A stretch of DNA of 38,731 bases from a virus. The notes beneath the pieces were generated by a model, which was not told where the DNA came from, made no database searches, and saw only the letters and a list, made by a program, of their open reading frames with translations. Every line of letters starts with the position of its first letter. Position 1 is the stretch's first letter. Positions 3,295-36,026 of the stretch are shown in pieces. Where the stretch lies: positions 1 to 38,731 of the IMG/VR virus record IMGVR_UViG_3300031227_000154; one strand, given 5' to 3'. The translations under genes were made by a program, and so were the position numbers.

Positions 3295-3307
3295 AAAAAG
3301 GAGAAAT

Positions 3308-6126: not shown

Positions 6127-6711
6127 ATGAAAAAAATACTAAGTTTAGTATTAATCGCCCTTATGGTTGCAGGGGTGGCATACGCTGCTACTCCGGGATA
6201 TAGACTTTCTCCGGGTATCGGTGAAAACATGACAACTGCACAAGGTGGTCAGCAATCAGATCCAGGCAAAACGTTTCGTATGGTACGATTCATGCCTGCA
6301 ACAGCAACAGCTAATTCTACAACACTTACAGCGGAATCTATTGTAATATGGGATTTAAGTTCCGATGATGGTGTTACAATAACAACAACAGAAACTTCTT
6401 ATGATTCTGCAGTAGCTGGAATTATAGTTCATGCGTGTTTGACACCTGAAACTATAGGTAATACAGCTGCCGTTGATCGTGGTAAGAGGAACTGGACATG
6501 GCTACAGACACATGGTTTAGCACAGGTAAGGGTGCAAAATCTTGGTTCAGTTGTGGTTGGTGAAGCTATGGCAACAAGTAACAATGAAGGTGAAGCAGGT
6601 TCTTTTGTAGCAAGTGCGAGTGCTGCAGGACTAAACGGAAATGCTGGATTCTTCTTTGATAGTGCCGCAGCGGATACAGATGATGTTGAGTGTTTTGTAA
6701 CTTGTGAATAA
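6127..6711 (+). CDS. Secreted capsid-adjacent protein, paralogue A, 194 aa
   Basis: Encoded directly after the capsid gene, where a head decoration or fibre protein would be expected, but it begins with a clear Sec signal peptide: MKK, a hydrophobic stretch and the cleavage motif AYA before ATPGYRLSPG. The mature part is Ser/Thr/Gly-rich and probably beta, with conserved segments GKTFRMVRF, IVIWDLSSDDGVT, RGKRNWTWLQTHG and a final ECFVTCE containing two cysteines that could form a disulfide in the periplasm. The gene at 6775 is a full-length paralogue of identical length. Function is unknown: an exported decoration protein, a periplasmic assembly factor or a surface-exposed protein are all possible. 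Confidence 0.82.
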   Translation: MKKILSLVLIALMVAGVAYAATPGYRLSPGIGENMTTAQGGQQSDPGKTFRMVRFMPATATANSTTLTAESIVIWDLSSDDGVTITTTETSYDSAVAGIIVHACLTPETIGNTAAVDRGKRNWTWLQTHGLAQVRVQNLGSVVVGEAMATSNNEGEAGSFVASASAAGLNGNAGFFFDSAAADTDDVECFVTCE

Positions 6712-6722
6712 TTGGTAAACAG

Positions 6723-6760
6723 TTTTAGAGGGTTTCTGTTGTAAAAAATCCTCTTTAAAA
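6723..6760 (+). other. Intergenic RNA hairpin after paralogue A
   Basis: The arm AGAGGGTTT (6727-6735) pairs with AAATCCTCT (6746-6754) to give nine base pairs with one G-U. Four more T-A pairs (6723-6726 with 6757-6760) lie beyond a two-base bulge. There is no U-tract after the stem, so it is not a standard intrinsic terminator. The matching hairpin after paralogue B (7373-7397) has the same geometry with different paired bases, which supports selection on RNA structure. Confidence 0.6.
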
Positions 6761-6774
6761 ATCAAGGAGTGACA

Positions 6775-7359
6775 ATGAAAAAAATTATAAGTATATTTAT
6801 TGTTGCCCTCCTTGTTACTGGGTCAGCATTTGCGGCTACACCGGGGTTTAGACTTAGCCCGGGAATAGGCGAAAATAAGACCTCGGTACAAGGTGGACAG
6901 CAATCTGATCCCGGTAAGACTTTTAGAATGGTAAGATATGTACCGGCTGGTGGTTCTGGTGACAGTACAACGCTAGTAACGGAATCTATAGTTATATGGG
7001 ATTTGGTCTCTGATGATGGAGTGACAGTAACAACGACAACCACATCACCAGATAGTGCGGTAGCTGGAATTATAGTTCAGGCAGCTTTATCACCTGAAAC
7101 GTTAGGTAATTCAGCTAAAGAAGATAGAGGTAAGAGAAATTGGACTTGGTTGCAGACACATGGAGTGTCACAGGTAAGAGTAAATGCGACTAATGGTGTT
7201 GTTGCTGGTAATTCTATGGGAACGAGTGCAACAGCAGGAGAAGCAGATATATTTGTAGCAAGTGCTTCCGATGCCACTAAAAACGGTAACGCTGGTTTCT
7301 TTTATGATACATCAGCAAAAGCACTAGATGACGTAGAGTGTTTTCTAATGTGTGAATAA
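6775..7359 (+). CDS. Secreted capsid-adjacent protein, paralogue B, 194 aa
   Basis: Full-length paralogue of the preceding gene. It has the same length, a signal peptide of the same type (MKK start, hydrophobic core, AFA cleavage motif before ATPG), and the same conserved blocks (RLSPGIGEN, GGQQSDPGKTFRMVR, DRGKRNWTWLQTHG, DDVECF..CE). ATG 6775 was chosen because AGGAG lies five bases upstream and the signal peptide starts at MKK; a GTG at 6769 is in frame but overlaps the SD. The pair arose by tandem duplication, and both copies keep the signal peptide and C-terminal cysteines, implying that export matters. Confidence 0.82.
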   Translation: MKKIISIFIVALLVTGSAFAATPGFRLSPGIGENKTSVQGGQQSDPGKTFRMVRYVPAGGSGDSTTLVTESIVIWDLVSDDGVTVTTTTTSPDSAVAGIIVQAALSPETLGNSAKEDRGKRNWTWLQTHGVSQVRVNATNGVVAGNSMGTSATAGEADIFVASASDATKNGNAGFFYDTSAKALDDVECFLMCE

Positions 7360-7372
7360 GTTATAAGGTTTC

Positions 7373-7397
7373 GTGGGGTTTCCCTAAAAAATCCCAC
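7373..7397 (+). other. Intergenic RNA hairpin after paralogue B
   Basis: GTGGGGTTT (7373-7381) pairs with AAATCCCAC (7389-7397), nine pairs including one G-U, with a seven-base loop. Against the hairpin at 6723-6760, the central GGGTTT/AAATCC is kept while outer pairs differ on both arms (AGA/TCT against GTG/CAC), so pairing is preserved by paired changes. No U-tract follows. It may set mRNA stability or dosage of the upstream gene. Confidence 0.6.
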
Positions 7398-7416
7398 AAC
7401 AAAAAAAGAGGTGAAT

Positions 7417-7800
7417 ATGAGCGAGAAAAAGAATAAAAGATTAAGAAAAAGGGTTAAAGATATTATGGAAAAGAACGGTATGAACAAAAACACTTTTAAG
7501 TTTCGTATGAAGGTAGCAAAGAGAGTATTTAAGATGGGGGCTATTACAGTATGTCTTGTTTGCATAGCATTACCATGTTTAGCAGATAAACTTATAGTGC
7601 CATTTGATTGTTACCCTAAAGAGATACAATCAGGATTTGCAGAAGCAGGTATGAAACTAGATTTATCAGGTAACGACAGAACAAGAGAATCATGGGGATT
7701 TATAGTCAATGAGGGTAGCCAATTTGTTATTTATACATATAAGAATGCAACACCGGAAGATTTTAAGATAATTATGGATATAATTCAAGGGAGTGCTTAA
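7417..7800 (+). CDS. Membrane-anchored or exported hypothetical protein, 127 aa
   Basis: ATG 7417 is preferred, with AGAGGTG just upstream; a GTG at 7411 is in frame but lies in that SD. Residues 1-40 are strongly basic (KNKRLRKRVKD). A single hydrophobic segment (GAITVCLVCIALPCLA) follows, then a soluble domain of about 70 residues with LIVPFDCYPKEIQ and NEGSQFVIYTYKN. This could be an N-in/C-out membrane anchor or an unusually long signal sequence. It continues the series of envelope-directed proteins after the capsid gene. Its stop overlaps the next start by one base. Family not recognised. Confidence 0.7.
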   Translation: MSEKKNKRLRKRVKDIMEKNGMNKNTFKFRMKVAKRVFKMGAITVCLVCIALPCLADKLIVPFDCYPKEIQSGFAEAGMKLDLSGNDRTRESWGFIVNEGSQFVIYTYKNATPEDFKIIMDIIQGSA

Positions 7801-9053
7801 TGGTCGCAATACCTTTAATGCCAAATATGTCTATGCCAACACAGATACCTACAATGTCTTTAGAGGATAGGTTAGCTTTGCGTAGAGTACAAGGTCAGAT
7901 GAAACCAGTAGACACTAAGACACCTGACGATTTGACACTTGAAGGTAGGATAAAGAAACTTATGCTAGATCAGGGTATAGAAGGTTTTGATAAAGCACCA
8001 CCAATGTCTAATATAGAATCAATCCCAATAACTAAACCATTATCAGATAAAGAAACAATCCCGATAACACCTGAAGATAGAGGTATAGAAGGGTTTGATA
8101 TAGCACCACCTATAAGTGATGTTGAAAGTGTACCTATAGAAGAAGCCCGACCTGAAGACCAGTATTCTACTATGGATAGTGGTGAAGGTAGTTTAGACCC
8201 ACAAGACTATGGTAGTGCTGAAGAGTTTGTGAAGGCGAAGTCTACGGAAAAAGCATTTTACAAAAAATATCATTCACAACACAAAGATATAGGTGGTAAA
8301 AGAGCCGGAACATCTGAAGAAAACAAGAAAAGCATACTATCTGAAGGGTTTAAACAGAGAGGGTTTAATGTAACAACTTTACCTGTTAATAAGGGATGGA
8401 AACCCACTTCTGGTAATGAAGGTATAATGGATTACACAGAAAAAGCATATGGGAACAAGAAGGGTGATGTTGTTTATCTTCTTCCTAGGGAAGCCGTTGA
8501 AAAAACAGGTAACGGCTATGTTCACAAAAAAGGATGGAAACCTTCTACCGAAGAAGTGGTAACAATAGAATATGATTCTCAATCAACTTACGAAGCATAT
8601 AAATCCCAACTAACCGACATCTACAACAAGGCACAGGGTGAGAGTAAAGCGACAAAAGTGCTATCTGAAAAAGTCCCGGGATCGTATGGTTTACTCCTTT
8701 CTCCTAAAACTATGGGTGGGAAAGAAGGTAGAGCGACTATTCAAGAATCTAAAGACTCTATAGATATTATACAGATACACAAAAACGATGCACCAAAGGG
8801 ACAAATGTCTAAAGAAATTAAAATACTTGAAGAAAGAGCCGCTCGTGAGGGGAAAGAAGTTAGAGCTATTGATGTAAGAGGTTCTATAAAATACTGGGAG
8901 GGTATGGGATACGACATTGTGCCAACTAATCTAGAGAATACTCCACGAGAACTTAAAATAGTTGATGCCCTAAAAACAACAAAACAACTAACCGACATCT
9001 ACAACAAGGCACAGGACAAAAATCTAACCAACAAGATAGCAAGGAGAAAATAA
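7800..9053 (+). CDS. Mosaic protein with ADP-ribosyltransferase-like and GNAT-like segments, 417 aa
   Basis: Three parts are visible. Residues 1-150 are low-complexity, with a 36-residue tandem repeat (GIEGFDKAPPMSNIESIP at 59, GIEGFDIAPPISDVESVP at 95). Residues 150-268 resemble ADP-ribosyltransferase-type folds of phage polyvalent proteins: YHSQHK, GTSEENKKSILSEGF, GDVVYLLP and EVVTIEY could supply an H-Y-E-like set. Residues 280-395 resemble a GNAT acetyltransferase (IHKNDAPKGQMSKE, LEERAAREGKEV, KYWEGMGYDI). The last part is flanked by exact 31-bp DNA repeats that encode QLTDIYNKAQ twice (270-279 and 396-405). Such proteins are sometimes packaged and ejected; that role and both fold calls are inference. 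It overlaps its neighbours by single bases. Confidence 0.72.
   Translation: MVAIPLMPNMSMPTQIPTMSLEDRLALRRVQGQMKPVDTKTPDDLTLEGRIKKLMLDQGIEGFDKAPPMSNIESIPITKPLSDKETIPITPEDRGIEGFDIAPPISDVESVPIEEARPEDQYSTMDSGEGSLDPQDYGSAEEFVKAKSTEKAFYKKYHSQHKDIGGKRAGTSEENKKSILSEGFKQRGFNVTTLPVNKGWKPTSGNEGIMDYTEKAYGNKKGDVVYLLPREAVEKTGNGYVHKKGWKPSTEEVVTIEYDSQSTYEAYKSQLTDIYNKAQGESKATKVLSEKVPGSYGLLLSPKTMGGKEGRATIQESKDSIDIIQIHKNDAPKGQMSKEIKILEERAAREGKEVRAIDVRGSIKYWEGMGYDIVPTNLENTPRELKIVDALKTTKQLTDIYNKAQDKNLTNKIARRK
8607..8637. repeat. 31-bp direct repeat flanking the GNAT-like module (left copy)
   Basis: An exact 31-base repeat with a partner at 8985-9015, offset 378 bases (126 codons), so both copies read in the same frame and encode QLTDIYNKAQ. 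Recombination between the copies would remove the GNAT-like module without a frameshift. Confidence 0.92.
8985..9015. repeat. 31-bp direct repeat flanking the GNAT-like module (right copy)
   Basis: Exact partner of 8607-8637. Sequence diverges immediately on both sides of each copy. Perfect DNA identity, including synonymous positions, indicates recent origin or ongoing exchange. Confidence 0.92.
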
Positions 9054-10054
9054 TGGGTAAATCAACAGTAAACAATATGCTTTCTAGTGTTAAACGTAGA
9101 GTTGATTACGATATAACAGATGACGATCTTGACACATTGTTACTAGATTGCATGGATGATGGTTTAAGACAGATGAAACAATGGCTGTTTGAGAACGACC
9201 TTAAAAACGATGTAAGTGAATCAGGTTCGTTTAAAACTATCGCAGGTCAATCATATAGAGATATAACAAAAGCCGTTATTGTAGGTGATTTGACTACATT
9301 TACGGGTCAAGCCGGTGATACTATAAATGTTCATATAGATGGCACAGATTATGATGATATAGACATAGCTGCTTGTACTACTATAGCATTAGTAGTTATA
9401 GCTATAAACGCAGCTACAAGTGGTTCGCAGGCTTCTAGTGACGATAATGGATATTTACAGATACTTTCAGGCACAACAGGGTCAACTTCTATAGTTACAA
9501 TAGCTGATGGTACAAGTACAGGTCAGACAGTAGTAGCCGAGTTGTTTTCAGTAGCCGCAGAAAGAACACAATCTGCGATAACTGATGTTGACGAGATTTA
9601 TCGGCTTACAGAAAGAGTTAATCAAACAGCAATAGATATGGTAGATTATTATGATTTAATTGCTATGAACCCTAAACCATCGTCAAGTACAGCAAGTACA
9701 CCTGATGTCGCTGCATTATGGGATGATAAGATATTCTTTTATCCAACACCGTCAGCAGCAAATCTTGTCTATATAGATTATTATATAAAAGTTACAGCAC
9801 CAGTAGCAGGTGCTAGTTTACCATTTGACCAGAAATATGATGCTATCTTAAAACAGTATTGCAGAGTAGAGTTCTTTGCATGGAAGTTTGCAGGTAGTCC
9901 ACAAGCACCACCTTTAATGAGAGAAGAAGGTAAGTTGAAACTATTGGTAGACCAGATAATAGTTAATTCTGCTAAAAATATAGGAAAGAATAGAGGACAG
10001 CGATCAAGAAGATCTGGTGGAACACCCGGACCAAGGAGGGCAATATCAAGCTAG
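9053..10054 (+). CDS. Head-tail adaptor (P22 gp4/phage adaptor type) with inserted beta domain, 333 aa
   Basis: Adaptors form a ring under the portal on which the tail assembles. The N-terminal helices (VKRRVDYDITDDDLDTLLLD, then GLRQMKQWL) and the C-terminal helical part (FDQKYDAILKQYCRVEFFAW, about 260-300) have the pattern of podovirus adaptor proteins, including a strand region KIFFYPTPS. Residues about 78-165 look like an insertion. They are Thr/Gly/Asp-rich with TFTGQAGDTINVHIDGTDY, ALVVIAINAATSG and NGYLQILSGTTGSTS, resembling small beta domains of sheath and flagellar hook-type proteins. The C-terminus is basic (RGQRSRRSGG). Its last codons contain the AAGGAGG that probably serves the next gene. 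Confidence 0.75.
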   Translation: MGKSTVNNMLSSVKRRVDYDITDDDLDTLLLDCMDDGLRQMKQWLFENDLKNDVSESGSFKTIAGQSYRDITKAVIVGDLTTFTGQAGDTINVHIDGTDYDDIDIAACTTIALVVIAINAATSGSQASSDDNGYLQILSGTTGSTSIVTIADGTSTGQTVVAELFSVAAERTQSAITDVDEIYRLTERVNQTAIDMVDYYDLIAMNPKPSSSTASTPDVAALWDDKIFFYPTPSAANLVYIDYYIKVTAPVAGASLPFDQKYDAILKQYCRVEFFAWKFAGSPQAPPLMREEGKLKLLVDQIIVNSAKNIGKNRGQRSRRSGGTPGPRRAISS

Positions 10055-10089
10055 ACATTAATAAAATAGTAAGGATATTAGTAGCTAGT

Positions 10090-11196
10090 ATGATTTTCTT
10101 AGCGGTAGCCGGATATAAAGGCTTACCACAAAGAGACTATGCACAAGCTATGTTTTGTCTTTGTACGTTTATAGTTTTTGGATTTTTACTTAGGAATATA
10201 TGGCTTTCACTCTTCGTTTTATGGACAGTAACGTTATATATTATGTTCGGGTTGGAGACAGGTGTAGTTTATATAACAAACATGTTTTTTGGTTGTGTAC
10301 TTTATTATGCAACAAAACAAGTCTATCAGAAGAAACATATAGACTTTTATATTAAGATATTACTTATATTCACAGGCTGCAATCTGGTGTATATGGGGTT
10401 ACAGATATTAGATTTTGATTTTTACTATTTAATGGTTATCAGAAACCTTCAAGGAGTGCTTTCTACAGTAAACAACACAGATCCATGTGGTTTCATGGGA
10501 TATAAAGCAGGAATGGGCATGTTAATGGCTATGTCTATCCCCTTAGTTGCCACCAGACGCTTCAGGTTCGCTCTAGTGACGAGTTTACTACTATTCGTGC
10601 CTATCTATATATCAAGGTCAAGTATATGTATTGTAGGCGGTATTGTGGGATATATGACAGTTTTATGGTTTCGTATCAGTAGACGTCATTGGTGGTCATT
10701 AGTAGTCATTATGGGTCTTTTGGCATCTCTGTATGTCATTAAGATAGATGCACCTATGGGAACGTTAAACACCAGACCTAAACAATGGAAAACTGTTTTA
10801 AGGGATTGTACTGAACATCCGATAAAAGGATGGGGATTAGATTCGTTTAGACACTTCACTAAACTGAAGAAAACGAACTATTGTGATTCTATAACAAAGA
10901 CAATAAAAGATGGTAAATCATCTGTTCATTTAGTTCAATGGGATAATCCACATAACTTACCTATCTCGATATTCTTTGAATGGGGTCTTATAGGGTTGTT
11001 ATTGTTAGGTGGGTATATAAGAGCGTGTTTTATCAGGTTTAAAGGAGCATTAAAATCTCCTAATACTTTAGCATTAACCGGGTTTATGATAGTGTTTTTC
11101 ATAGTATCATTAGCACAATTCCCGATATTTTTAGGTAAATTTGCAGTTTTCGTAATTCCACTTTTTGCACTTTACGAAATTTCTGTGGGGGATTAA
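10090..11196 (+). CDS. O-antigen ligase/polymerase-like (WaaL/Wzy_C type) membrane protein, 368 aa or longer
   Basis: A polytopic inner-membrane protein with about ten hydrophobic segments. The large loop before the last segments carries the signature of the O-antigen ligase/polymerase family: R229-PKQW, HPIKGWGLDSF (243-253), then NPHNL (286-290) followed by FFEWGLIGLL. In this family the loop Arg and His residues take part in transferring polyprenyl-linked glycan. A role in altering host surface polysaccharide, for example to block superinfection or change serotype, is inferred. It sits inside the virion operon, which is unusual. The ATG at 10090 lacks a good SD. The frame stays open upstream, and AAGGAGG (10033-10039) lies five bases before an in-frame ATC at 10045, so translation may start earlier at a rare codon. 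Confidence 0.78.
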   Translation: MIFLAVAGYKGLPQRDYAQAMFCLCTFIVFGFLLRNIWLSLFVLWTVTLYIMFGLETGVVYITNMFFGCVLYYATKQVYQKKHIDFYIKILLIFTGCNLVYMGLQILDFDFYYLMVIRNLQGVLSTVNNTDPCGFMGYKAGMGMLMAMSIPLVATRRFRFALVTSLLLFVPIYISRSSICIVGGIVGYMTVLWFRISRRHWWSLVVIMGLLASLYVIKIDAPMGTLNTRPKQWKTVLRDCTEHPIKGWGLDSFRHFTKLKKTNYCDSITKTIKDGKSSVHLVQWDNPHNLPISIFFEWGLIGLLLLGGYIRACFIRFKGALKSPNTLALTGFMIVFFIVSLAQFPIFLGKFAVFVIPLFALYEISVGD

Positions 11197-11240
11197 ATAA
11201 AGCGACCAAGATTGTTTCGCTTACGAGGATGTAATTTCAT

Positions 11241-11306
11241 ATGAGAAGAAGAAGAAGAAGTAAAGCACTTTTTGAACTGGAGGTTAGTAATGGGTCAACA
11301 ACGTAG
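11241..11306 (+). CDS. Possible 21-aa arginine-rich small ORF
   Basis: ATG 11241 opens with five consecutive Arg codons (MRRRRRSKALFELEV) and ends at TAG 11304-11306, 17 bases inside the next gene. GAGGA at 11225-11229 is a rather distant SD. It contains the SD of the following gene (GGAGG at 11279-11283), so translational coupling is plausible. Its size and lack of recognised relatives make it uncertain. Confidence 0.35.
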   Translation: MRRRRRSKALFELEVSNGSTT

Positions 11307-11607
11307 ATCAATAGAGACAGTACAAAACATGGCTAGAATCAGTAAAGCTCAACAACGAACAGCTATATCAATAACGGATGCTGATACTGAAGAAATAATA
11401 ATAGCTTCTAGTATGTTTGCTATAGAGATACAGAACAATGGAAACGAAGATGTTTATTATGGTGGTAGTGATGTAGCATCGTCAGATGGTATTGCACTCT
11501 ACTCTGGAGATAAACTAATGTTTACTAATGTTGAGAATACTTTTAGTATCTATTTCGTGGTAGCTGCTGGAAAGAACTCAGAATTAAGAATGGTGGAGTA
11601 TAAATAA
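11290..11607 (+). CDS. Small virion-associated beta protein, 105 aa
   Basis: ATG 11290 is chosen because GGAGG lies six bases upstream; an in-frame TTG at 11272 precedes that SD. After a polar N-terminal helix (QQRRSIETVQNMARISKAQQ), the rest reads as a beta-sandwich: AIEIQNNGNEDVYYGGSDV, DGIALYSGDKLMF, SIYFVVAAGKNSELRMVEYK. This pattern recurs in small proteins encoded beside phage adaptor and tail genes. A structural or head-completion role is inferred from context. Its stop overlaps the next ATG. Confidence 0.7.
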   Translation: MGQQRRSIETVQNMARISKAQQRTAISITDADTEEIIIASSMFAIEIQNNGNEDVYYGGSDVASSDGIALYSGDKLMFTNVENTFSIYFVVAAGKNSELRMVEYK

Positions 11608-12206
11608 TGAAGAATACAATAATAAAAGAGTTATTGCCGTATGTTGAAACATTTGCTAGTAGCTTAGCAGTAGAACATGAGAAGGTTAAGAAAGTACAGA
11701 AAAGTCTTGAAAGCCAAATAACGTCTATTAAAGAAAACGAGCAGAACAGAGTAGTTGCTCATCAACAGGCTAAAGAATCGTTATTGGCACAGGAAAAAGA
11801 ATATCGAGAATATAAAGAACATCTTGCTGTTAAAGAACGAGAGATAGAACTTGAAAAAGCTGAATATAATGCACAGAAGAAAGAATTTGAAAAACGTACT
11901 AAAGAAGTCGAGGATAATCTAGCTGAGATAAAGAATGTAAAAGCTATGAGTGCAGAACAGTTACAGAACAATAAAAAGATAGAAGATACTTATAGGAAAA
12001 AGCTAGAGTTCCTTAAAAAAGATGATGCTAGAATAGATAAGATGCAGAAAGATGCTAATGCTAAAGAATCTAGTCTTGATATGAGAGGTAAGATGCTAGA
12101 CGATAGAGAATATGAACTTGCACAAGTCAGAATCAAGTTAGATGAAAGATCAGATTTTGTTAAAATAAGTGAAAAACAACTTAAAATCAAACAAGCACAA
12201 GGATAA
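11607..12206 (+). CDS. Coiled-coil protein, 199 aa
   Basis: Almost the whole protein after residue 20 is a long charged coiled coil rich in Lys, Glu and Gln with heptad-like spacing (LAVKEREIELEKAEYNAQK, MRGKMLDDREYELAQV). It lies between the small beta protein and the tail nozzle. In this position a coiled coil could be a fibre shaft, a tail-assembly chaperone or an ejected protein. No catalytic motif and no recognised family. Confidence 0.7.
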   Translation: MKNTIIKELLPYVETFASSLAVEHEKVKKVQKSLESQITSIKENEQNRVVAHQQAKESLLAQEKEYREYKEHLAVKEREIELEKAEYNAQKKEFEKRTKEVEDNLAEIKNVKAMSAEQLQNNKKIEDTYRKKLEFLKKDDARIDKMQKDANAKESSLDMRGKMLDDREYELAQVRIKLDERSDFVKISEKQLKIKQAQG

Positions 12207-12209
12207 ACA

Positions 12210-13733: not shown

Positions 13734-13734
13734 T

Positions 13735-15174
13735 ATGAAAAAAATATTGATTATGTTTATGGGAATGATGATTTTAGCTAGTTCTGCATTTGCAACGGTG
13801 ACTACTTTATCGTATGTTTCACCTGAAGATGTATCTATTACAAGGTTGGAATCTAACAGACAGACTTTAACAGATGCAGCTAATAGTGTAGATGGTAGTT
13901 TAATTCAATCTGGGTCTATTGTCATAACAGCTTTAATTGATGATGCTAGAACCGATGTCAGGTGGAATGAAGGTTTTTCTGATTGGGTATATACAGGTTT
14001 AGTAGTACCTACAACTTCGGCTACATTGACAGCAACAACAACTTCAGGTACAGCTTATGTTTCTGGAACAAGAGTAGAAAAAGATGCTACAGCTAAACTA
14101 TACACAGCAAGTAAATGGACTTTTGTAGACCTTTCAAGTGATGGAGTTTACACTTATACCGAAACTGCTATTGCTGCGTCTGATCCTGCAATAACTGCTG
14201 ATTCTGTAAGATTATCTAGGGTATCTTCTGATACAACACAAGTATTTGCAGTAAGAGATGATCGTTTAACTGCTATTACTTTAGGCAGTGAACAAGAGAA
14301 TTATCAAAGAGAAAACTTTACTATATCGGTTGTAACGCCTGATGCGATAACATTAAGTCCGGGTATCATCTATAACGGAACAACAAGAATAATAAAAACG
14401 GCAGATACAGATCTTAATTTGGCAACTGCTGGGGATTGGGCAACTTCTGGTGGTTCAAGAGCAAATAGTACAAAAGGTTATGTTGTAGTTAATACTTCTG
14501 GAACACAATATAAATTATCAACTACTGATCCTACATTAACAGATACTTCAGGTAATACTGATGGTGAATTAAGATATTCAGTTATAGATTCAGTTAATTG
14601 GAGAGTTCTTGATTGGTTTTGGATGGATGCTATTGGTAGTGGAAACATTACTGAAGAAAGTTATGGTGCGTGGAGAGATAACGCTTTACCAGAAGAAATT
14701 ATACAAGTAGTAAACATACAAAACGGTGTGCCTGACGGTTCAACTGGAAATGGAACTAATGTACCCAACGATAACACAGTTCCAACTTGGGCAGAAGTTT
14801 ATAATTTCACAGCATTAGATACATCTATAGTGCCAACAAATGCTAACAATACATTAAGAATAGATGTTGTTGTTTCCCTATGTCCTGATTCTGCTGCTTC
14901 TATAGCTTACGGTATATGGCAAGATCCTTCTGGTACAGATGAAGCTTTATGTATTGGATCATCTTATAATGCTAGTTCTACTTTTGCAGATACCAAAACA
15001 CTTACTTATTATATGACCGCAGGAACTACAGATGCGACTATTTTTAAGATAGCTGCCGGTACTATCGGTGGAGCAGATGATGTTAATCTAAATTCTATAA
15101 CAGCACACGCAGCTAAATTTGGAGAATCATTAATTTCATCAGTAACAATAACAGAAATAAAACAAGGGGTATAA
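13735..15174 (+). CDS. Secreted tail-fibre-like protein, 479 aa
   Basis: Begins with a Sec signal peptide (MKK, Met/Ile-rich core, AFA before TVTT). The mature N-terminal segment (SPEDVSITRLESNRQTLTDA, SLIQSGSIV) and the beta-rich, Thr/Ser/Gly/Asp-dominated body (GTAYVSGTRVEK) resemble phage fibre or baseplate-attached proteins. A later part (NNTLRIDVVVSLCPDS, FKIAAGTIGGADDV) looks like a beta-sandwich of a receptor-binding type. A signal peptide is unusual on a fibre. It may be surface-displayed, periplasmic, or use the hydrophobic N-terminus in another way. Start ATG 13735 has GGAGCTTAAT upstream. Confidence 0.75.
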   Translation: MKKILIMFMGMMILASSAFATVTTLSYVSPEDVSITRLESNRQTLTDAANSVDGSLIQSGSIVITALIDDARTDVRWNEGFSDWVYTGLVVPTTSATLTATTTSGTAYVSGTRVEKDATAKLYTASKWTFVDLSSDGVYTYTETAIAASDPAITADSVRLSRVSSDTTQVFAVRDDRLTAITLGSEQENYQRENFTISVVTPDAITLSPGIIYNGTTRIIKTADTDLNLATAGDWATSGGSRANSTKGYVVVNTSGTQYKLSTTDPTLTDTSGNTDGELRYSVIDSVNWRVLDWFWMDAIGSGNITEESYGAWRDNALPEEIIQVVNIQNGVPDGSTGNGTNVPNDNTVPTWAEVYNFTALDTSIVPTNANNTLRIDVVVSLCPDSAASIAYGIWQDPSGTDEALCIGSSYNASSTFADTKTLTYYMTAGTTDATIFKIAAGTIGGADDVNLNSITAHAAKFGESLISSVTITEIKQGV

Positions 15175-15177
15175 AAG

Positions 15178-15396
15178 ATGGAAAGACCTAAAAAGACAAG
15201 ATTAAAAGATAAAGATATGAACGATAGGTTTGAGCAAGTATATCAAGATGGTATGGGTAACCCTGTAATATTGTCGGCAGCACCCACAAAACCTGCGGAT
15301 ATGAAAGCTAACACAATGGGATATTATGGAGATAAATTATACATACGATTTGCAAATGGCAAATTACAACAGTTTGATGGAACAGAAATAACATAA
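15178..15396 (+). CDS. Small virion-associated protein, 72 aa
   Basis: A short protein with a basic, polar N-terminus (RPKKTRLKDKDMNDRFEQV) and a C-terminal beta part (TMGYYGDKLYIRFANGKLQQF) of a kind often found beside phage fibre genes. It sits three bases after the fibre-like gene, so it is probably co-translated. A fibre-attachment or tail-completion role is inferred from position only. Confidence 0.65.
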   Translation: MERPKKTRLKDKDMNDRFEQVYQDGMGNPVILSAAPTKPADMKANTMGYYGDKLYIRFANGKLQQFDGTEIT

Positions 15397-15405
15397 GGAG
15401 CAGAC

Positions 15406-16260
15406 ATGGGAGTTTTCAATAGTATTGCTAACATATTCGGTTTGGGTAAAGATAAAGGTCAAGGACAAGCCCCTCAACGAGCTAACCGAACAACTTTATT
15501 GCAAGATAAACGAGGGTTAGACTTGTTTAATCGAATTAAGGCTAGATCGCAGGGTCAGGGGTTAGGTATAGCACAGAAAGAATTAGACCCGGCAAGTGCT
15601 ACCTTTGCAACTAGACAACGAAGAGCTTTTAATGAAAGCACTATGCCTATGATTTCACAACAGGCATCTTCAAGAGGTTTAGGTAAATCTACTATCCCAA
15701 TAAATCGTGCTGCTTTAGAAAAACAAAAAACTGAAGAAAGTATATCTGAAAGAATAGCTAATATCCAATTACAGAACGAACTATTAAAACGTCAAGAACA
15801 GAGTACAGCTATAGGCAGAGAAGGTGCTATGGTCGGAACAGATGTTAATCAACAGAACGCAGAAACACAAGCAGCTAATATGTTTCAACAGGCAGAGTTT
15901 TTACGGCAACAGGGTTATAGAGAAAGATCAGAAGCTAAAAAACAAGAAGGATTGAAACTGTTAGTCGGTGCGGCAGCACCTGTTGTAGGCGGTGCTTTAT
16001 CTGCTGTAGCACCAGCATTAGCTGGAATACCCGGAGTAGGTGGTGTGTTAAGTGCTGGTGCAGAAGGATTAGGACAGTTCAGTACAAATGTTGGTAATAT
16101 ATTAAATCCTCCTAAATCTAGTGGGTTAACCATTAATACAGGTGATAACACAAGTGCTGCACAAGTACAAATATCAGATGACGAAATAAATGCGATGGGA
16201 TTGAGTGACGAAGATACAGCGTTTCTGAAAACATTAAGAGATAACTTTGGAGGAAAATAA
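15406..16260 (+). CDS. Ejection/internal virion protein candidate, 284 aa
   Basis: The N-terminus (MGVFNSIANIFGLGKDKGQGQ) is Gly-rich. The centre is Gln/Ala/Glu-rich helix (residues about 90-180). A hydrophobic Ala/Gly-rich segment (LLVGAAAPVVGGALSAVAPALAG...) follows that could insert into membrane, then a polar acidic C-terminus. This layout resembles P22-type and T7-type internal or ejection proteins that form a trans-envelope channel for DNA entry. It is the first of three consecutive such genes. SD AAGGAGCAGAC precedes ATG 15406. Confidence 0.7.
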   Translation: MGVFNSIANIFGLGKDKGQGQAPQRANRTTLLQDKRGLDLFNRIKARSQGQGLGIAQKELDPASATFATRQRRAFNESTMPMISQQASSRGLGKSTIPINRAALEKQKTEESISERIANIQLQNELLKRQEQSTAIGREGAMVGTDVNQQNAETQAANMFQQAEFLRQQGYRERSEAKKQEGLKLLVGAAAPVVGGALSAVAPALAGIPGVGGVLSAGAEGLGQFSTNVGNILNPPKSSGLTINTGDNTSAAQVQISDDEINAMGLSDEDTAFLKTLRDNFGGK

Positions 16261-17498
16261 TGGCTAATCTTACACCTGAACGAAAACAACAATTAACAAG
16301 TATGTTCACACAAATGATGTCTAAAAAAGCCAGAACTAATAGTGGTATTTCTAGTGAATCAGTTGATACAGTAAATAAATTCGGTAGTCCAGATGTCGTT
16401 AAAAAGGTTCAAGACGTAGAAAAAAACGCTCAAGCTATTAATGTCGGTAATCTACAGCAAGACAGTCGGAGTGAAGCAGAAAAGACATGGGAGAATATGA
16501 CACCGGCAGTTAAAGAAAACTTTGAACTGATACCAACAATGGATAAAGGTGTTTTGACAATGGGTATAAGAGAAAAACCTGATGTTGTTACAGGCAGAAC
16601 ACAAAAAGCTAAAGTAGAAGAAGAAACTAGAAAAAGAGAAACTGAAAAAGAACAAGCACCGGGAGTTAGGCAAAAAGGTTTTGAAGATGAACAGTTAAAA
16701 TCATTACAAGAAGCTAGGGGAGCATCAAGGGTTGGTACTCTAGCATCTATGAATAATCTTGAAAATTTAACTGGTGTAGGTAGAGATTTTATGGATGTAT
16801 ATGCTAAAGGTGTTGATGAAGGAGGGTTAGGTGGGTTTGTACAATCCAAAAGAACAGCTTTAACTGCAGCCTTAGGAGAACCACCAAAAGCATTAAGGGA
16901 TATGGGTTTAAAGAAGTTTCCCGGAGCTTTAGATCCAGAAGCTTCGTTTTCGGAATCTTTTAGTGGTAAGAGACAAGAATTTTTATTAAAGATGATGCCT
17001 ATGCTAACACAACAAGCCATGAAATCTACTGGATCAATGAGAATAATTAGAGGTGTAATGCAGGCTTTAGGTCAAACAATACCAGATGAACAAACAAGAC
17101 CACAAGCAGCAAAACAGCAAGTAACACAATCTATCAGAACATTTTTTAGATTTGCTAGAGCAGCAGAGAATTTGGGAATGTCTATTGATGAAATATTAAT
17201 AGATTCTGAAACAGGTTTAATAAGAAAAGAAATAAAGAGTAACGAAATAACTGATTGGGTAGAAAAAGTAAATGAATTAACTGGCAAAATAGAATTATCT
17301 GCAGATGAACAAGACGCTTTGGATAACATGACAGGAGCGACCACAAAGCCAGTAACCGATTTGCTACAAAGACGAGAAGGAACAGAAAAAAGAATGGTTG
17401 GGGATATAGATTTTACTAAAGAAATAGAAGATGGAACACCAGATATTTTTAAAGGTATGACTACTGAAGAAATACAAGCGATAGCACAAGGGAGATAA
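16260..17498 (+). CDS. Ejection/internal virion protein candidate, 412 aa
   Basis: Starts one base inside the previous stop (TAATG). Mostly helical, highly charged and Gln/Lys/Glu-rich with no membrane segment. Regions such as KAKVEEETRKRETEKEQ are coiled-coil-like, and a middle part (FLLKMMPMLTQQAMKSTGSM) is Met-rich. Second of three genes that, by position and composition, should encode proteins packaged in the head and ejected with the DNA. No peptidoglycan hydrolase motif was seen. Family-level assignment is uncertain. Confidence 0.65.
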   Translation: MANLTPERKQQLTSMFTQMMSKKARTNSGISSESVDTVNKFGSPDVVKKVQDVEKNAQAINVGNLQQDSRSEAEKTWENMTPAVKENFELIPTMDKGVLTMGIREKPDVVTGRTQKAKVEEETRKRETEKEQAPGVRQKGFEDEQLKSLQEARGASRVGTLASMNNLENLTGVGRDFMDVYAKGVDEGGLGGFVQSKRTALTAALGEPPKALRDMGLKKFPGALDPEASFSESFSGKRQEFLLKMMPMLTQQAMKSTGSMRIIRGVMQALGQTIPDEQTRPQAAKQQVTQSIRTFFRFARAAENLGMSIDEILIDSETGLIRKEIKSNEITDWVEKVNELTGKIELSADEQDALDNMTGATTKPVTDLLQRREGTEKRMVGDIDFTKEIEDGTPDIFKGMTTEEIQAIAQGR

Positions 17499-17499
17499 A

Positions 17500-19212
17500 A
17501 TGGCTGACAATATACAACAGGCTAAACAAGAACTAGCTAGGCGCGAGGTATTAAGACGTAAAGGCTTAGAACAAAACTCTAAAAAGACTGGTTTGGCATT
17601 GGGTCTTGAAAGAGCAGGTAAACTTGCAAGTGATGTTGTTGGGCAAGCTCCTTTAATCGGATCAGTAGTAGCCGGTGCTGGTAGTGAAATTATACCTAAA
17701 CTTATTCCACCAGTACAAGCTGCAGAAGTAGTGAATCCCATACTTCCTAAAGCAAGACGGGTTTTGTTTAGTGGTTTAGGTGGAGCTAAAGGTGAAGAGT
17801 TCAAACAAGAGTTTGAGAAACAGCCTGTAAAAGCTACAGTAAGAGCCGCAGCAGATGTAGTTCAACCTATCGTTCCATTCGCACCGACATTGGCTGGAAT
17901 GATACCAAAACCAGAAACAACAGATGTTGAGAAACAGAAACAAATAGGAACAGGTGCAGGGTTAGCAACGCTAGATGCACTAGGAGAAACTATATTTCCT
18001 TTATTCGGTAAGGTTGGAAACGTTATAGGAAAGAAAGTATTTCCAAGAGCTAAAGCCATAACAAAGACAATTCTAAAAACATTACCTGATGATTTCACTA
18101 ATTTTCTTATAAAGCAAAAGGGTGTAGCTTCAGATTCAGTTAAGTTCTTAAAAGAAAAAGGTACTGAAAACGTAAAAAGAATAGCTGGCGATCTTACAGA
18201 CAATATAGATGATTTCTTTGTAAGGTTAAAAACAGGAGTACAGACTAAAATAGATGATGCAGGTAAAAGCCAAAAAGCAGTATTTGATAATGTTCCAAGT
18301 GATAGAAGTTTTAATATAAATGAATTTATAATAAAATCCAAAAAACGATTAGCTAGTGTCGGTAGGGTAACTAAGACAGGAAAACCAAGTGCTACCGGCA
18401 GACAGATAAAAGCTAATGCCTTAGACGAAGTTGATGATATTCTGAATAACTTATCTAAAAGACAGCAGACAGGGTTTGATATAGGAACAGGTAAATTATC
18501 GAAGAAACAAACTGTTGATGTATCAAGAAAAGGTTTAGGTGGAACGTTTGAGAAAAAGGTCGTAAGAACGAATGTTAATAAAGAAGAATTAAAGTTATTG
18601 AGAGATAGGTTGCAAGCATTAAGAAGTAACGCTAACCCTTCAGAAAAAAGAATATTAACTGACATAGTAAATAATCTTGTTGATGCAGGAGAGAATCAAG
18701 GTGCAGCAGGATGGAGAGCAGCACAGAAAAAATATACTCAAGCTAAAACGTTAGAGAAAGAGTTTCTGAATAGTTATGGTGATGTTAAAGGAGTAAATCA
18801 AGGCACAATAAAAGATTACTTTAAAGCATCTAAGGTTAATAAAGATAAACTTAGTAGACTAGCTACAGAGTTAGGTGACGAAACCTTAGAGAACGAATTA
18901 AAAATAGTAAGTGCAAATAAATCTTTGCAAAAAGCAGAGCAAGAATTTAGTGATGATAAAATACTATCAACGTTAAAAGGTTTACTTGATGATGATGTAA
19001 GGGTAGTAGCTAAGACAGAAAAGACATTAAAACACATGTTTGGTGATAAGGCAGAATCCATAATAAAACAAGTTTCAAATGTGAAAACTGCTGGAAAACT
19101 GAAAAAGGTTGTAGGTGTCACAGCCGGGTTGGGAGCAGCAGGTGGTACTGGAAAAGCAATATTCAACAAAGTTGCTGGAAAAAAAGAAGAAGAAACTATC
19201 CAATTACAATAG
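17500..19212 (+). CDS. Large ejection/internal virion protein candidate, 570 aa
   Basis: Third of the putative ejection set. Residues 30-200 contain several Ala/Gly/Val-rich segments (DVVGQAPLIGSVVAGAGSE, TGAGLATLDALGETIFPLFG) that could contact membrane. The middle is helical and basic, and the C-terminus holds another Gly/Ala-rich stretch (VVGVTAGLGAAGGTGKAIF) before a Lys/Glu tail. No lysozyme or transglycosylase active-site motif could be identified. Its stop is immediately followed by the SD of the big fibre gene. Confidence 0.65.
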   Translation: MADNIQQAKQELARREVLRRKGLEQNSKKTGLALGLERAGKLASDVVGQAPLIGSVVAGAGSEIIPKLIPPVQAAEVVNPILPKARRVLFSGLGGAKGEEFKQEFEKQPVKATVRAAADVVQPIVPFAPTLAGMIPKPETTDVEKQKQIGTGAGLATLDALGETIFPLFGKVGNVIGKKVFPRAKAITKTILKTLPDDFTNFLIKQKGVASDSVKFLKEKGTENVKRIAGDLTDNIDDFFVRLKTGVQTKIDDAGKSQKAVFDNVPSDRSFNINEFIIKSKKRLASVGRVTKTGKPSATGRQIKANALDEVDDILNNLSKRQQTGFDIGTGKLSKKQTVDVSRKGLGGTFEKKVVRTNVNKEELKLLRDRLQALRSNANPSEKRILTDIVNNLVDAGENQGAAGWRAAQKKYTQAKTLEKEFLNSYGDVKGVNQGTIKDYFKASKVNKDKLSRLATELGDETLENELKIVSANKSLQKAEQEFSDDKILSTLKGLLDDDVRVVAKTEKTLKHMFGDKAESIIKQVSNVKTAGKLKKVVGVTAGLGAAGGTGKAIFNKVAGKKEEETIQLQ

Positions 19213-19219
19213 GAGAATA

Positions 19220-22219
19220 ATGAAAAAAATAATCTTAATATGTTTATGTTTATTAATACCATTCACAGCACACGCAGGTATAAGCACTTCTACATCTAAA
19301 TTAAGAATCCAAGAAGAAGATGGATCTCCAACTGGTAGACCAAGAACACTAAAGGTAACTAATACAACTCTTACCGATAACGGTGATGGCAGTTTTAGTT
19401 TAGATACAACTGGAAAACCTGCACATACAGTAACAGTAGCCGAATCAGGTGGAGATTATACATCAATACAAACAGCACTTAATAATAATCGCACAGACAA
19501 TACTTTATTTATAATTTATCCTGATACTTATGTAAATGATACTATAAATTTCACAGCTAACGACCAATGTATAGTTGGGGCAGGTTTAACTGCACAATCT
19601 GTAATAACCAATACAGCACAGATAATTGATTATGGTGCTTATACAGGTTGTCGTATGAATAATATTAAATTAGTAGGAACATATACCACAGCGATAGATA
19701 TGATAACGGGTAGTGGAGGTTTAATAGCAAGGGATGTTCATTTAGAGGTAAATGTTTCGGGAGCAATCGCAGGAAGCCCAACGGTAGTAAATACAACAGG
19801 TTCATTTAAACAGGTACGAGGTTCGTTAATTTATAAGAATGATGCTATATCAACAGGACAAATTAAACAAGCTCTTACATTGGGTACGTCAGCTACGGTA
19901 GAGTTAAGACGAGTTATAGTAGATATAGACGGCTCAAATGCTTCCACGGCAATAACTTTAGGGTATGGTGCAGGTACAGGTGTATTAAATGCGTATCGTT
20001 GTAAGGTAGATATAGAAGATGCGGATGCAGTTATCGTAAATGGGTTAGCTTATCTTGGGGGTTCAGGCGACCACGAATATTTGGGTAACGACCTTCATGT
20101 AACTTGTGGTGGTGATGGTAAATTTGCTTATGGGTTTTTATGCACTACGGCTACGTCGTTATCTATCAGAAGTATGTTTAATCACTTACACATAGAAGAT
20201 GGCGGAGGTACAGGAAAAAGTTATGGTATGTCAATAGGTGCTGATTGTACGGTAGTCTCTCAGTTTGATGATATTGTAGCAGCGGATGGAGTTGTGAATA
20301 ATGGAACTTTTACGGTTGCAAATTCTACTGCTGATGGAGATTTCACAGCTACGGGAACAGTGGATAGTGGTAAGCTTGTAGTGGACACAGACACGCTTGT
20401 AGTAAATGCTACGGGGCATGAAGATAGGGTAGGTATAGGAACAGATAGTCCAAACAAAACTTTACATTTACACTCAGAAGATACAGGGACATATTTTAAA
20501 ATAACAAATGGAGGAACAGGTATAGGTGGCAATGATGGTTTTGATTTTGTTATTTATAATGATGATGTTTCTTTGATAAATAGGGAATATGGCTCTTTAA
20601 AATTTAGAACTAATAATATACATAGAATGACTGTTGATAAAGACGGCGATGTAGGTATAGGTACAGCTACGCCAACAGCTAATTTTCAAGTTTCACAATC
20701 AACTACTGGTGAAGGAACAGTAACCATCACAAGTACCACAGCCTGTGCGGGAACAGGAACAGACTTTCTTAATACTTTCAAAGTTGGCGATACTATTACA
20801 ATCACCGATACAGCAGAAACAAAGGTAATATCAGCTATTGCTTCTGATACAGCGATGACTATTGTAGCGGGTACAAATGTTGCAGATTCGGCTTATACTC
20901 TTGCTGGTGGGGATAGATTAAGTGTACTAGGAAATGGAAATGTAGGTATAGGAACAGCTACTCCAAATTCATTATTGCAAGTTGGAGATGGAACAGGAAA
21001 CCCTGAATTTAGAATTTATGGTGATGCTTCCACCCCAGGAACAGGAGCAAAATATGCGGCTTTAGATATTAATACCTGGGGAATGCTGAAGTTTTCTGGA
21101 GATATTGCTGGGGTTTATTATAATACAAATTTAATAATAAATGGTTCAAGCACAATAAAAGATAACACAAGTCAAGCTCAAATTGGTTTTGGAGATTCTC
21201 AAAGTTCAGGACAAACACTTATGTTTTATAATCTTATTAACAACAATATCTTTGCCAAAACGTTAGGATATGATTATGGACATTCTGCTCAAGATAATCC
21301 AACGGTTTTTATACATTCTGATAATAATTCTCAAACAGAATGGTTAAGTTTTACCCACGACCAAACAAACGGAGTTTTTGGATTGGGTTCTGGTGCTTAT
21401 ACATTTCCAGACGGCGATGTAGGTATAGGAACAGATAGTCCAGACTACCTACTAGATGTAGCTGAAATAGGTAATAGTGTGGGTGACTTTAAAATACAAG
21501 CTGATGTTCAAGGTGATGTTATATTGTTTGGTGATACTGATGTAGGAGATGCTGTAGATGGTCGGAAATGGATACTAAACCGTAAAGCTGCAGAAGGTGA
21601 CAGGTCTTTAGAAATGTATATAGACCAATATACTGACGGACATATTGATTTCAATACCTCACCAATGAGTTTACAATATCAGGGCAATAATGATGTAAAG
21701 TTTTTCACAGCTTGTGGTAGTGGTGATAACAGAAATGTAAGACAGTATGGGTATATAACAGCAGCGGGGGGTAGAAAATATATTAACTGGCAAGTAACGG
21801 CAGCAGGCAATTTTGAACTTACAAGAGAAGATTCCAACATAGGTAATTTTGATATACAAATGCCATTAATAACAGATGCCATAACAATGAGTGCTGAATT
21901 AGTAGCCACACCTGACGAAATAACAGCTACAAGCGAGGGTGTAGCCGCTTCAATAGTAACATTAAATACTGAAGTAACAACTAATGATGATAATGATTTA
22001 GATGTCGTAACGCTTGCTGATGGAACAAGTGGACAGATAAAACATATATACTGTGTAGCTTCATTTACAGGTGATACTTGGAAGATAACACCAACTACTT
22101 TATTGGGTGGAACACAGATAACTTTTGGTGATAATTCTATAGGAACTGGTTGCACTTTGGTGTTTGCGGATAGTGAAGGTTGGATTGTAGTGGGTAACAA
22201 TGGGGGAACAATAGCTTAA
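19220..22219 (+). CDS. Secreted tail fibre/spike with pectin-lyase-like region and VGIGT repeats, 999 aa
   Basis: ATG 19220 is chosen because AGGAG at 19211-19215 and a Sec signal peptide (MKKIILICLCLL..., AHA before GIST) fit it; an earlier in-frame ATG at 19115 lies inside the upstream gene. Residues about 75-330 look like a right-handed beta-helix (SGGDYTSIQTALNNN, LFIIYPDTYV), as in spikes that bind or cut polysaccharide. Four repeats VGIGT-x-[ST]P begin near residues 404, 478, 575 and 734, a motif of trimeric fibres. The last 100 residues form a Thr/Asp-rich beta domain (GTSGQIKHIYCVASF, GWIVVGNNGG). It is the likely receptor-binding protein, although a signal peptide on a fibre is unexpected. 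Confidence 0.82.
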   Translation: MKKIILICLCLLIPFTAHAGISTSTSKLRIQEEDGSPTGRPRTLKVTNTTLTDNGDGSFSLDTTGKPAHTVTVAESGGDYTSIQTALNNNRTDNTLFIIYPDTYVNDTINFTANDQCIVGAGLTAQSVITNTAQIIDYGAYTGCRMNNIKLVGTYTTAIDMITGSGGLIARDVHLEVNVSGAIAGSPTVVNTTGSFKQVRGSLIYKNDAISTGQIKQALTLGTSATVELRRVIVDIDGSNASTAITLGYGAGTGVLNAYRCKVDIEDADAVIVNGLAYLGGSGDHEYLGNDLHVTCGGDGKFAYGFLCTTATSLSIRSMFNHLHIEDGGGTGKSYGMSIGADCTVVSQFDDIVAADGVVNNGTFTVANSTADGDFTATGTVDSGKLVVDTDTLVVNATGHEDRVGIGTDSPNKTLHLHSEDTGTYFKITNGGTGIGGNDGFDFVIYNDDVSLINREYGSLKFRTNNIHRMTVDKDGDVGIGTATPTANFQVSQSTTGEGTVTITSTTACAGTGTDFLNTFKVGDTITITDTAETKVISAIASDTAMTIVAGTNVADSAYTLAGGDRLSVLGNGNVGIGTATPNSLLQVGDGTGNPEFRIYGDASTPGTGAKYAALDINTWGMLKFSGDIAGVYYNTNLIINGSSTIKDNTSQAQIGFGDSQSSGQTLMFYNLINNNIFAKTLGYDYGHSAQDNPTVFIHSDNNSQTEWLSFTHDQTNGVFGLGSGAYTFPDGDVGIGTDSPDYLLDVAEIGNSVGDFKIQADVQGDVILFGDTDVGDAVDGRKWILNRKAAEGDRSLEMYIDQYTDGHIDFNTSPMSLQYQGNNDVKFFTACGSGDNRNVRQYGYITAAGGRKYINWQVTAAGNFELTREDSNIGNFDIQMPLITDAITMSAELVATPDEITATSEGVAASIVTLNTEVTTNDDNDLDVVTLADGTSGQIKHIYCVASFTGDTWKITPTTLLGGTQITFGDNSIGTGCTLVFADSEGWIVVGNNGGTIA

Positions 22220-22235
22220 AAATTAAGGGGGAAAG

Positions 22236-22541
22236 ATGAAGAAGGTAATATGTTTAATTGCAATAAGTTTAATGGTTGTTTCAACTTGTCAGGCTAAGAC
22301 TATTGTGATAGCGGAAGACCAAGAACTGCAAGATATTGACGAAAAGCAAATTACAATAACTGACCAAGTAGAGGATGTTGAAAGCATAAGTATAAACCAA
22401 CTCAAACATGAGATACAGCAACATCAAGCAAGAAGTGATTACCAACTAGAACAAAAGGCTGAGAAGGTATCCAAACTTACTGAAATAATGACTGCGTTAA
22501 AGGTAACAGATACAGACGGTACTTTATCAATAGAGAAATAG
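22236..22541 (+). CDS. Exported coiled-coil protein, 101 aa
   Basis: N-terminal signal peptide (MKKVICLIAISLMVVST) with a likely cleavage after CQA, then an acidic segment and a Gln/Glu/Lys helix (INQLKHEIQQHQARSDYQLEQKAEKV). A short periplasmic coiled coil beside lysis-type genes could be a spanin component or fibre-related, but neither is proven. AAGGGGGAAAG precedes ATG 22236. It continues the series of Sec-targeted late proteins. Confidence 0.7.
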   Translation: MKKVICLIAISLMVVSTCQAKTIVIAEDQELQDIDEKQITITDQVEDVESISINQLKHEIQQHQARSDYQLEQKAEKVSKLTEIMTALKVTDTDGTLSIEK

Positions 22542-22552
22542 AAAGGTTTATC

Positions 22553-23068
22553 ATGTCTGACCTTCAAGAAGTAAGAAACAGATTAATAGTTTTAGAAACT
22601 CAATCAGAAGAACGGTGGAAATCTCATACTGTTCAGAGCAAGATAATATGGACAGTTATAGACGATAAACTAGACTTACTTATAAGGCATAAGGATGACC
22701 AACAGCTACATAAAGATAAGTGTATGCAAGAGGCTAAGAGCTACACTAAAAGCCTTGTAGGATGGGTTCTGGGCGTTCCTACGACCATTGGCACTATAAT
22801 AGGTATTATATGGGGTCTAAAACGTATATTATTGCTTAGTGCAGTAGTATGTTTGTTTCTTTGTGGGTGTGGTATCACAACAGAGTTTTATATTGCTGAT
22901 AAAAAGGTGGGACATATTAAACAAGATTCGGCAGGTCAGGCGATACTTAAAACTGAAAATATGGAAATGTCAGTAGATACACGCAAACCGTCAGCTTGGG
23001 AAAGATTCATAACACCTATGGTTTCCGGGGCGGTGGGAACAGCAAAAGAAGGTGCAGGTGCGTTATGA
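22553..23068 (+). CDS. Fused XhlA-like/lipoprotein-like lysis protein, 171 aa
   Basis: Residues 1-65 form a soluble helix resembling XhlA-type holin-associated proteins (MSDLQEVRNRLIVLETQ). A transmembrane segment follows at 68-89 (VGWVLGVPTTIGTIIGIIW), then after only KR a second hydrophobic stretch that looks like a lipoprotein signal (ILLLSAVVCLFLCGC) with a possible lipobox cysteine at 106. The last 65 residues are polar. A lipobox in the middle of a protein is odd: this may be a fusion of a holin-type gene and an outer-membrane spanin-type lipoprotein, or an ancestral start codon may have been lost. The stop overlaps the next gene. Confidence 0.65.
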   Translation: MSDLQEVRNRLIVLETQSEERWKSHTVQSKIIWTVIDDKLDLLIRHKDDQQLHKDKCMQEAKSYTKSLVGWVLGVPTTIGTIIGIIWGLKRILLLSAVVCLFLCGCGITTEFYIADKKVGHIKQDSAGQAILKTENMEMSVDTRKPSAWERFITPMVSGAVGTAKEGAGAL

Positions 23069-29196: not shown

Positions 29197-29206
29197 GGAG
29201 TATAAA

Positions 29207-35876: not shown

Positions 35877-36026
35877 ATGATAAATAAAGGATTAGGGAGC
35901 AGATTGAATGTTTGGAAGAATTGGTTGACTTGGAGTATATTGATTGTGTGTACGCTTATTCTCGTTGTTGGATGTTTTACTGGATGGATTTGGTGGGGGG
36001 TGTGGATATGTGGAAAATTATTTTAG
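35877..36026 (+). CDS. Small Trp-rich membrane protein, 49 aa
   Basis: AAGGGAGATGTG precedes ATG 35877. A basic N-terminus with three Trp is followed by a hydrophobic span (SILIVCTLILVVGCFTGWIW) and a short Trp-rich end. It overlaps the next gene by 19 bases. Function unknown. Confidence 0.55.
   Translation: MINKGLGSRLNVWKNWLTWSILIVCTLILVVGCFTGWIWWGVWICGKLF

Follow-up and report, generated by a model that had tools for sequence, protein, structure and literature searches.

The late gene module of the IMG/VR virus record IMGVR_UViG_3300031227_000154, analyzed here as one window comprising the entire record (38,731 bases), raises the question of why proteins resembling the cement and the fibres of a phage particle should begin with signals for export out of the cytoplasm. 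Assembly of tailed phages is taught as wholly cytoplasmic until lysis. Five genes of the module, all on the + strand (6127-6711, 6775-7359, 13735-15174, 19220-22219 and 22236-22541; genes are named below by their first base), were predicted to encode proteins with a cleavable Sec-type signal peptide (SP). In all 13 phages of the group, the window included, the putative cement protein bore the export signal, as did most fibres, whereas the core proteins of the particle were always free of it. Judging from sequence, Sec export and cleavage of the cement and fibre proteins is highly probable, and the balance leans towards the exported proteins ending up in the virion; that export is followed by joining the virion we rate as an even bet.

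The first-pass annotation had described the five N-termini as an MKK start, a hydrophobic core and an A-x-A-type site, and had named a signal-peptide predictor as the check. The N-termini were as described, and the rule used here called all five as cleavable Sec-type. Predicted cleavage followed MKKILSLVLIALMVAGVAYA in 6127 (next residue A), MKKIISIFIVALLVTGSAFA in 6775 (next residue A, read from the ATG backed by a Shine-Dalgarno sequence), MKKILIMFMGMMILASSAFA in 13735 (next residue T), MKKIILICLCLLIPFTAHA in 19220 (next residue G) and MKKVICLIAISLMVVSTCQA in 22236 (next residue K). The features of Sec and signal peptidase I substrates were present, namely a positive n-region, a hydrophobic core, a small-x-small site and a start supported by a ribosome-binding site. 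Each of the five ATGs was preceded, at the usual distance, by a Shine-Dalgarno-like stretch, and no in-frame downstream start had a better one, thus indicating that these SPs are not start-codon artefacts. When applied to 98 kb of Escherichia coli K-12, the rule found 17/17 known Sec substrates and misfired on 8/60 other proteins, seven of which were membrane proteins. Extra filters were added for phages (minimum score, short n-region and no other membrane helix) which, as read off the listed scores, would leave TolA alone of the 60 E. coli non-substrates. The rule fired on 3/222 antisense open reading frames (ORFs) of the phage family. Seven control phages (lambda, P22, T7, Mx8 and three others), with 368 ORFs in total, gave 10 calls; these corresponded to Rz, Lom, Bor, small ORFs and Mx8 p64, none of them annotated as structural.

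Searched for in related phage genomes, as the first-pass annotation had suggested, the pattern recurred in 12/12 related contigs. These 12 IMG/VR contigs, none of them from an isolate, make up with the window 13 member contigs partly related to one another. Some were recovered with the decoration and capsid proteins as queries; five more came from a scan with the Wzy_C-family protein of the module (10090) alone, which is blind to SPs, and all five have an SP-bearing cement protein and fibres. When the capsid alignment was widened for a final scan, the hits were ten contigs already known as members plus L064, a distant capsid relative without Wzy_C and without SPs. SPs were counted in ORFs sorted by family, using the 13 member contigs together with L064; Fisher values take related genes as independent and are therefore not read as probabilities. 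They were present in 15/15 copies of the decoration protein (the gene after the capsid gene), in 7/8 homologues of the 13735-type fibre (fibre A) and in 8/12 small proteins of the 7417 type, in contrast with 0/85 in core virion proteins overall (portal 0/13, scaffold 0/12, capsid 0/13, adaptor 0/10, coiled-coil protein 0/9, nozzle 0/10, 15178-type 0/8 and ejection 0/10). The eighth fibre A, from contig G007, reads MKKLLQVISLISILLFCKESSA followed by G and fails the rule solely by charged residues near the site. Most other large fibres, differing in sequence, carried an SP too, and in several of them it stood directly before an 'EEDGSP...GTLTDN.DGT' domain. The SP was kept across about 30-70% identity among homologues, and its codons showed dN/dS of about 0.26-0.57 where measurable; this purifying selection indicates that the SPs are maintained and are not decaying. 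The export signature on decoration and fibre types, noticed in the window by the first-pass annotation, is thus conserved throughout the lineage. As a separate observation, lysine made up 2.2% of the mature exported-type proteins (13735-22219 and homologues), a low share when set against 7.2% for the core proteins and 4.2% for the control set of fibres and decoration proteins.

The slot directly 3' of the major capsid gene was occupied by a decoration gene in all 13 contigs. In the window it holds two probable capsid cement (decoration) proteins sharing 69% identity: copy 1 at 6127..6711 (+; SP score 14.9, cut after residue 20 between AYA and A), with the slot and modelled fold of 6775, and copy 2 at 6775..7359 (+; cut after residue 20 between AFA and A). 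No Pfam or PHROG family matched the decoration proteins in 15 members. A low-confidence AlphaFold2 model of 6775 obtained from 15 homologues (pLDDT 54, vs. pLDDT 34 with nine sequences) gave phage capsid-decoration or appendage chains in all of the best 16 PDB rows by Z (Z 4.7-7.3), including those of HFTV1, Pam3, phiCD508, FCWL1, XM1, T1, TW1, Sf11, E217, phi29 and others, and Foldseek agreed with these phage capsid and appendage matches. The molybdopterin enzyme MoeA and its relatives were set aside as matches (Z about 2-4, ~60 residues covered). In phage Mx8 the same gene slot corresponds to p49, annotated as a major virion protein and devoid of an SP, and comparison of the 6775-type profile with that of the p49-type slot family gave E 9e-4 at a probability of 23%. 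The gene after the capsid gene very probably encodes a capsid cement protein; considering the PDB matches, the shared slot and profile relation with p49 and the lack of an SP in the latter, 6775 is most likely a cement protein that gained an SP.

Two further exported-type proteins appear fibre-like by their length, position and repeat-rich sequence, and no database names them. Fibre A (13735..15174, +; SP score 13.5, cut after residue 20 between AFA and T) has homologues that could be aligned; a single-sequence search for its relatives and Pfam and PHROG scans gave nothing useful. The larger one (19220..22219, +; 999 amino acids; SP score 16.0, cut after residue 19 between AHA and G) continues with an EEDGSP...TLTDNGDG domain, an arrangement also present in L041, L045, L046, L047 and G005. 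A fibre-like ORF with a strong predicted SP was also seen in the isolate phage Mx8 (p64, L031:22782-23855, 357 amino acids), outside its structural block.

The first-pass annotation overlooked two genes located among these. One of them (10090..11196, +) encodes a multi-membrane-helix enzyme with a Wzy_C domain, that is, a member of the O-antigen ligase / protein O-oligosaccharyltransferase (OTase) superfamily (PF04932, E 3.7e-12, 46.7 bits vs. a cut-off of 31.7); its true start may lie slightly upstream of 10090. PF04932 was above cut-off in the window and in 4/5 relatives scanned, with L007 just below it, and a homologue was present in 11/11 contigs reaching that position. Residues R229, P244, G249 and H288 were conserved in the family, R229 and H288 being invariant, and G247 was present in all homologues except that of L007. 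The gene sits within the late structural cassette beside exported-type proteins and not in a lipopolysaccharide (LPS) biosynthesis locus; Wzy_C genes acting on proteins typically adjoin their exported target, outside LPS loci (PMC3643930). The second overlooked gene (7417..7800, +) encodes a small protein with a hydrophobic signal or anchor segment, whose 12 homologues always adjoin the decoration gene. Other glycan genes were observed in relatives, namely a PMT_2-like GT-C protein that scored under the Pfam cut-off (L003:1095-2126) and a CMP-sugar-type cytidylyltransferase, CTP_transf_3 (L018:3473-4174, - strand).

Presence of the Wzy_C gene went together with that of the SPs. Eight capsid relatives (Mx8, Mx9, BUCT555, ppBjS10J-1, MT835830, MW202489, MW202803 and L064) lacked Wzy_C and also lacked an SP in the decoration slot, whereas in L007 the Wzy_C gene was accompanied by SPs on both the decoration protein and a fibre. 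The capsid protein of L007 groups with the Mx8 clade and not with that of the window (100/100 split, long branch); since L007 has both elements in spite of this grouping, their link may have arisen or moved more than once. The options given by the first-pass annotation (maturation in the periplasm, display on the cell surface or a function outside the virion) were the right ones, and the linked Wzy_C enzyme favours the first of them.

The route that we propose would divide assembly between two compartments. DNA-filled heads, consisting of portal, scaffold, major capsid, adaptor, nozzle and ejection proteins, would be built in the cytoplasm, while the outer proteins (cement 6127 and 6775, fibres 13735 and 19220) would be made as precursors, exported via the Sec pathway of the host, processed by signal peptidase I and retained in the periplasm or the envelope. 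They would meet the heads only once the inner membrane opens at lysis, and particles would thereby gain adsorption competence on leaving the cell. Outside the cytoplasm, the Wzy_C-family transferase 10090 may decorate the exported proteins with undecaprenyl-linked host glycan, perhaps assisted in the transfer by the small exported protein 7417. Glycosylation of the exported proteins by this enzyme is a tentative proposal, on the doubtful side. Still more tentative is the complete picture of a tailed-phage lineage with cytoplasmic heads in which periplasmic cement and receptor-binding fibres, glycosylated by a phage enzyme of the O-antigen-ligase family, are joined to the heads at lysis to give virions coated in host sugars. 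Such a route might be advantageous by making adsorption competence coincide with lysis, by masking receptors or by providing glycan camouflage.

Several observations weigh against this route. The SP predictor was a home-made rule calibrated on E. coli and not SignalP, the cement fold comes from a model with the pLDDT of 54 given above, and an SP was missing from one fibre-like ORF in the relative G003 (28683-30431). Cysteine was not enriched in exported-type proteins, for which reason disulphide formation was rejected as the reason for export. Serine and threonine were strongly enriched with respect to core proteins and marginally with respect to ordinary fibres, so that this enrichment is not taken as proof. 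When 50,697 phage records were searched by tblastn for isolate relatives, zero matches were obtained with four proteins of the window (capsid, decoration, nozzle and Wzy_C). The terminase matched many phages at ~30% only. Two scans of 84,980 species genomes for a host or prophage gave no close relative; two terminase relatives obtained in these scans carried none of the families of the module. The link between Wzy_C and SPs may derive partly from shared ancestry. As for the enzyme, its R-x14-P-x2-G-x-G spacing equals that of R298-P313-G316-G318 in PglL, in which the two glycines are conserved, unlike in WaaL (PMC3643930). This pointer to a protein OTase is suggestive only, because the PglL_A motif (PF15864) gave no match in six 10090 homologues and the sole PDB sequence match of 10090 was the WaaL O-antigen ligase 7tpg (E 1.1e-5, 167 positions). 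The matching region is common to the whole Wzy_C superfamily, and PilO likewise lacks PglL_A (PMC3643930).

The WaaL match and the absence of PglL_A also fit the alternative that survives best, in which 10090 is a separate serotype-conversion gene, or an O-antigen ligase or polymerase gene, that changes the LPS of the host and is unconnected with the exported virion proteins. Phage Wzy_C genes of this kind are known in D3 and VarioGold (PMC9658991). The 10090-type gene lies, however, within the late structural cassette in every member instead of in a moron cluster, its presence tracks that of the SPs, and no integrase was found among the inspected ORFs of the window. We consider this alternative a real possibility, short of an even chance. 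A second explanation accepts export and places the role of the proteins outside the virion: cement-like and fibre-like proteins in the envelope would mask or saturate the phage receptor, thus causing superinfection exclusion or shielding released virions from debris. Sec signals would indeed bring proteins to the envelope, phages do export envelope proteins such as Lom and Bor of lambda, and surface glycans could be changed at the same time through the linked Wzy_C enzyme. Against this, 6775 is cement-like and directly follows the capsid gene, in the slot of a virion protein of Mx8; it is hard to see what a capsid cement fold would do in the envelope, and in most members no second set of cement or short-fibre proteins without SPs was seen. 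Such a role seems unlikely.

Less likely still, and quite improbable, is that the N-termini are uncleaved inner-membrane anchors tethering cement and fibres during assembly, or targeting tags removed later, as the first-pass annotation had contemplated. Hydrophobic N-terminal segments of this length can anchor, and the 7417 protein has a ~45-amino-acid cationic cytoplasmic extension before its hydrophobic segment in the window (7417-7533), L005 and L002, like a signal anchor, the remaining members presenting a plain SP. Nevertheless, almost every hydrophobic core in the decoration proteins and fibres leads into a small-x-small cleavage site, as in the E. coli calibration substrates, which makes membrane anchors less likely, and a mature protein anchored in this way would be exposed to the periplasm and not to the cytoplasm. 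That the SPs are spurious, by chance or from wrong start codons, can hardly be entertained: the rule is simple and home-made and wrongly calls some membrane proteins, but the counts of 15/15 and 7/8 against 0/85, the few antisense calls, the Shine-Dalgarno-backed starts and the conservation among divergent homologues all speak against it.

The fifth SP-bearing gene stands apart from the export of cement and fibres. The first-pass annotation had placed all five proteins in the virion module. The 101-amino-acid product of 22236..22541 (+; SP score 13.7, cut between CQA and K), at the beginning of the lysis-type region (22236 onward), is probably a lysis protein and not clearly part of the virion; its match to the PHROG Rz-like spanin was weak (E 0.011 only), and the next gene, 22553, has a lipobox-like stretch. 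This next gene (22553-23068) is one ORF with a membrane helix and then a second hydrophobic stretch containing the lipobox-like LFLCGCG, and it looks like a fused holin-like part and lipoprotein. Outside the late module, a 103-amino-acid ORF (36008-36319) presented a predicted SP, MWKIILVIMMLFCSA followed by G.

The module itself runs left to right from the portal (1092) to the lysis-type region. Between them lie a scaffold-type protein (4045), the major capsid protein taken as reference point (5089..6114, +; phrog_9953 major head protein, E 8.7e-23; without SP), the adaptor (9053; PF24175, E 2.3e-5, slightly below the family cut-off), a nozzle-type protein (12210) and ejection-type proteins (15406-19212). 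In the relative L002 the terminase large subunit (1258-3372) is split by an intein-like insertion after KKDDHL.

Among known systems, the group of Mx8, Mx9 and their relatives BUCT555 and ppBjS10J-1 shares with the window the order terminase, portal, scaffold-type, capsid, decoration-slot, adaptor/tubular, nozzle-type and ejection-type genes, and its decoration slot is related to that of the window at the profile level. It differs in having a decoration protein without SP and no Wzy_C gene, the likeness in Mx8 extending partially to one SP-bearing fibre-like ORF, the p64 mentioned above. Known cement proteins (the base of phi29 gp8.5, Pam3, XM1, T1, TW1 and lambda D) resemble 6127 and 6775 in the position of the gene after that of the capsid and, as far as the model indicates, in fold. 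Known capsid cement and decoration proteins are cytoplasmic and are not known to carry an SP, a difference from the homologues described here, all of which (15/15) bear one. No report of Sec signals on cement or fibre proteins of tailed phages was found in the open-access literature. The target proteins of phage diversity-generating retroelements are reported to lack SPs, unlike the surface-displayed bacterial ones (PMC6199706). The use of Sec by phages is known for endolysins, as Lys44 of fOg44, and for SAR endolysins (PMC6116005). These proteins, as well as Lom, Bor and spanins, are placed outside the cytoplasm by the Sec system of the host, like those predicted here, yet they are lysis or envelope proteins and not components of the particle.

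With regard to the enzyme, PglL, PilO and TfpO share with 10090 the Wzy_C domain, the conserved Arg and His and the location of the gene beside exported candidate targets and outside an LPS locus; 10090 differs in being phage-borne, in that PF15864 was not detected and in that its activity is predicted. The O-antigen polymerase or ligase genes of D3 and VarioGold are, like 10090, phage-encoded genes for Wzy_C membrane proteins. They are of moron type, belong to temperate phages and lie outside the late module, in contrast with the position of 10090; phage Wzy_C genes for serotype conversion are known (PMC9658991). If the proposed route is true, completion of the virion could be divided between the two sides of the inner membrane, with lysis setting its timing. 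If, in addition, the Wzy_C enzyme acts on the exported proteins, phages would have a route for glycosylating their own surface with host polysaccharide, and the enzyme would be a candidate for a new class of O-glycosylating enzymes with natural phage acceptor proteins. Each component is thus of a known type, whereas their combination and the assembly route that it implies appear to be undescribed.

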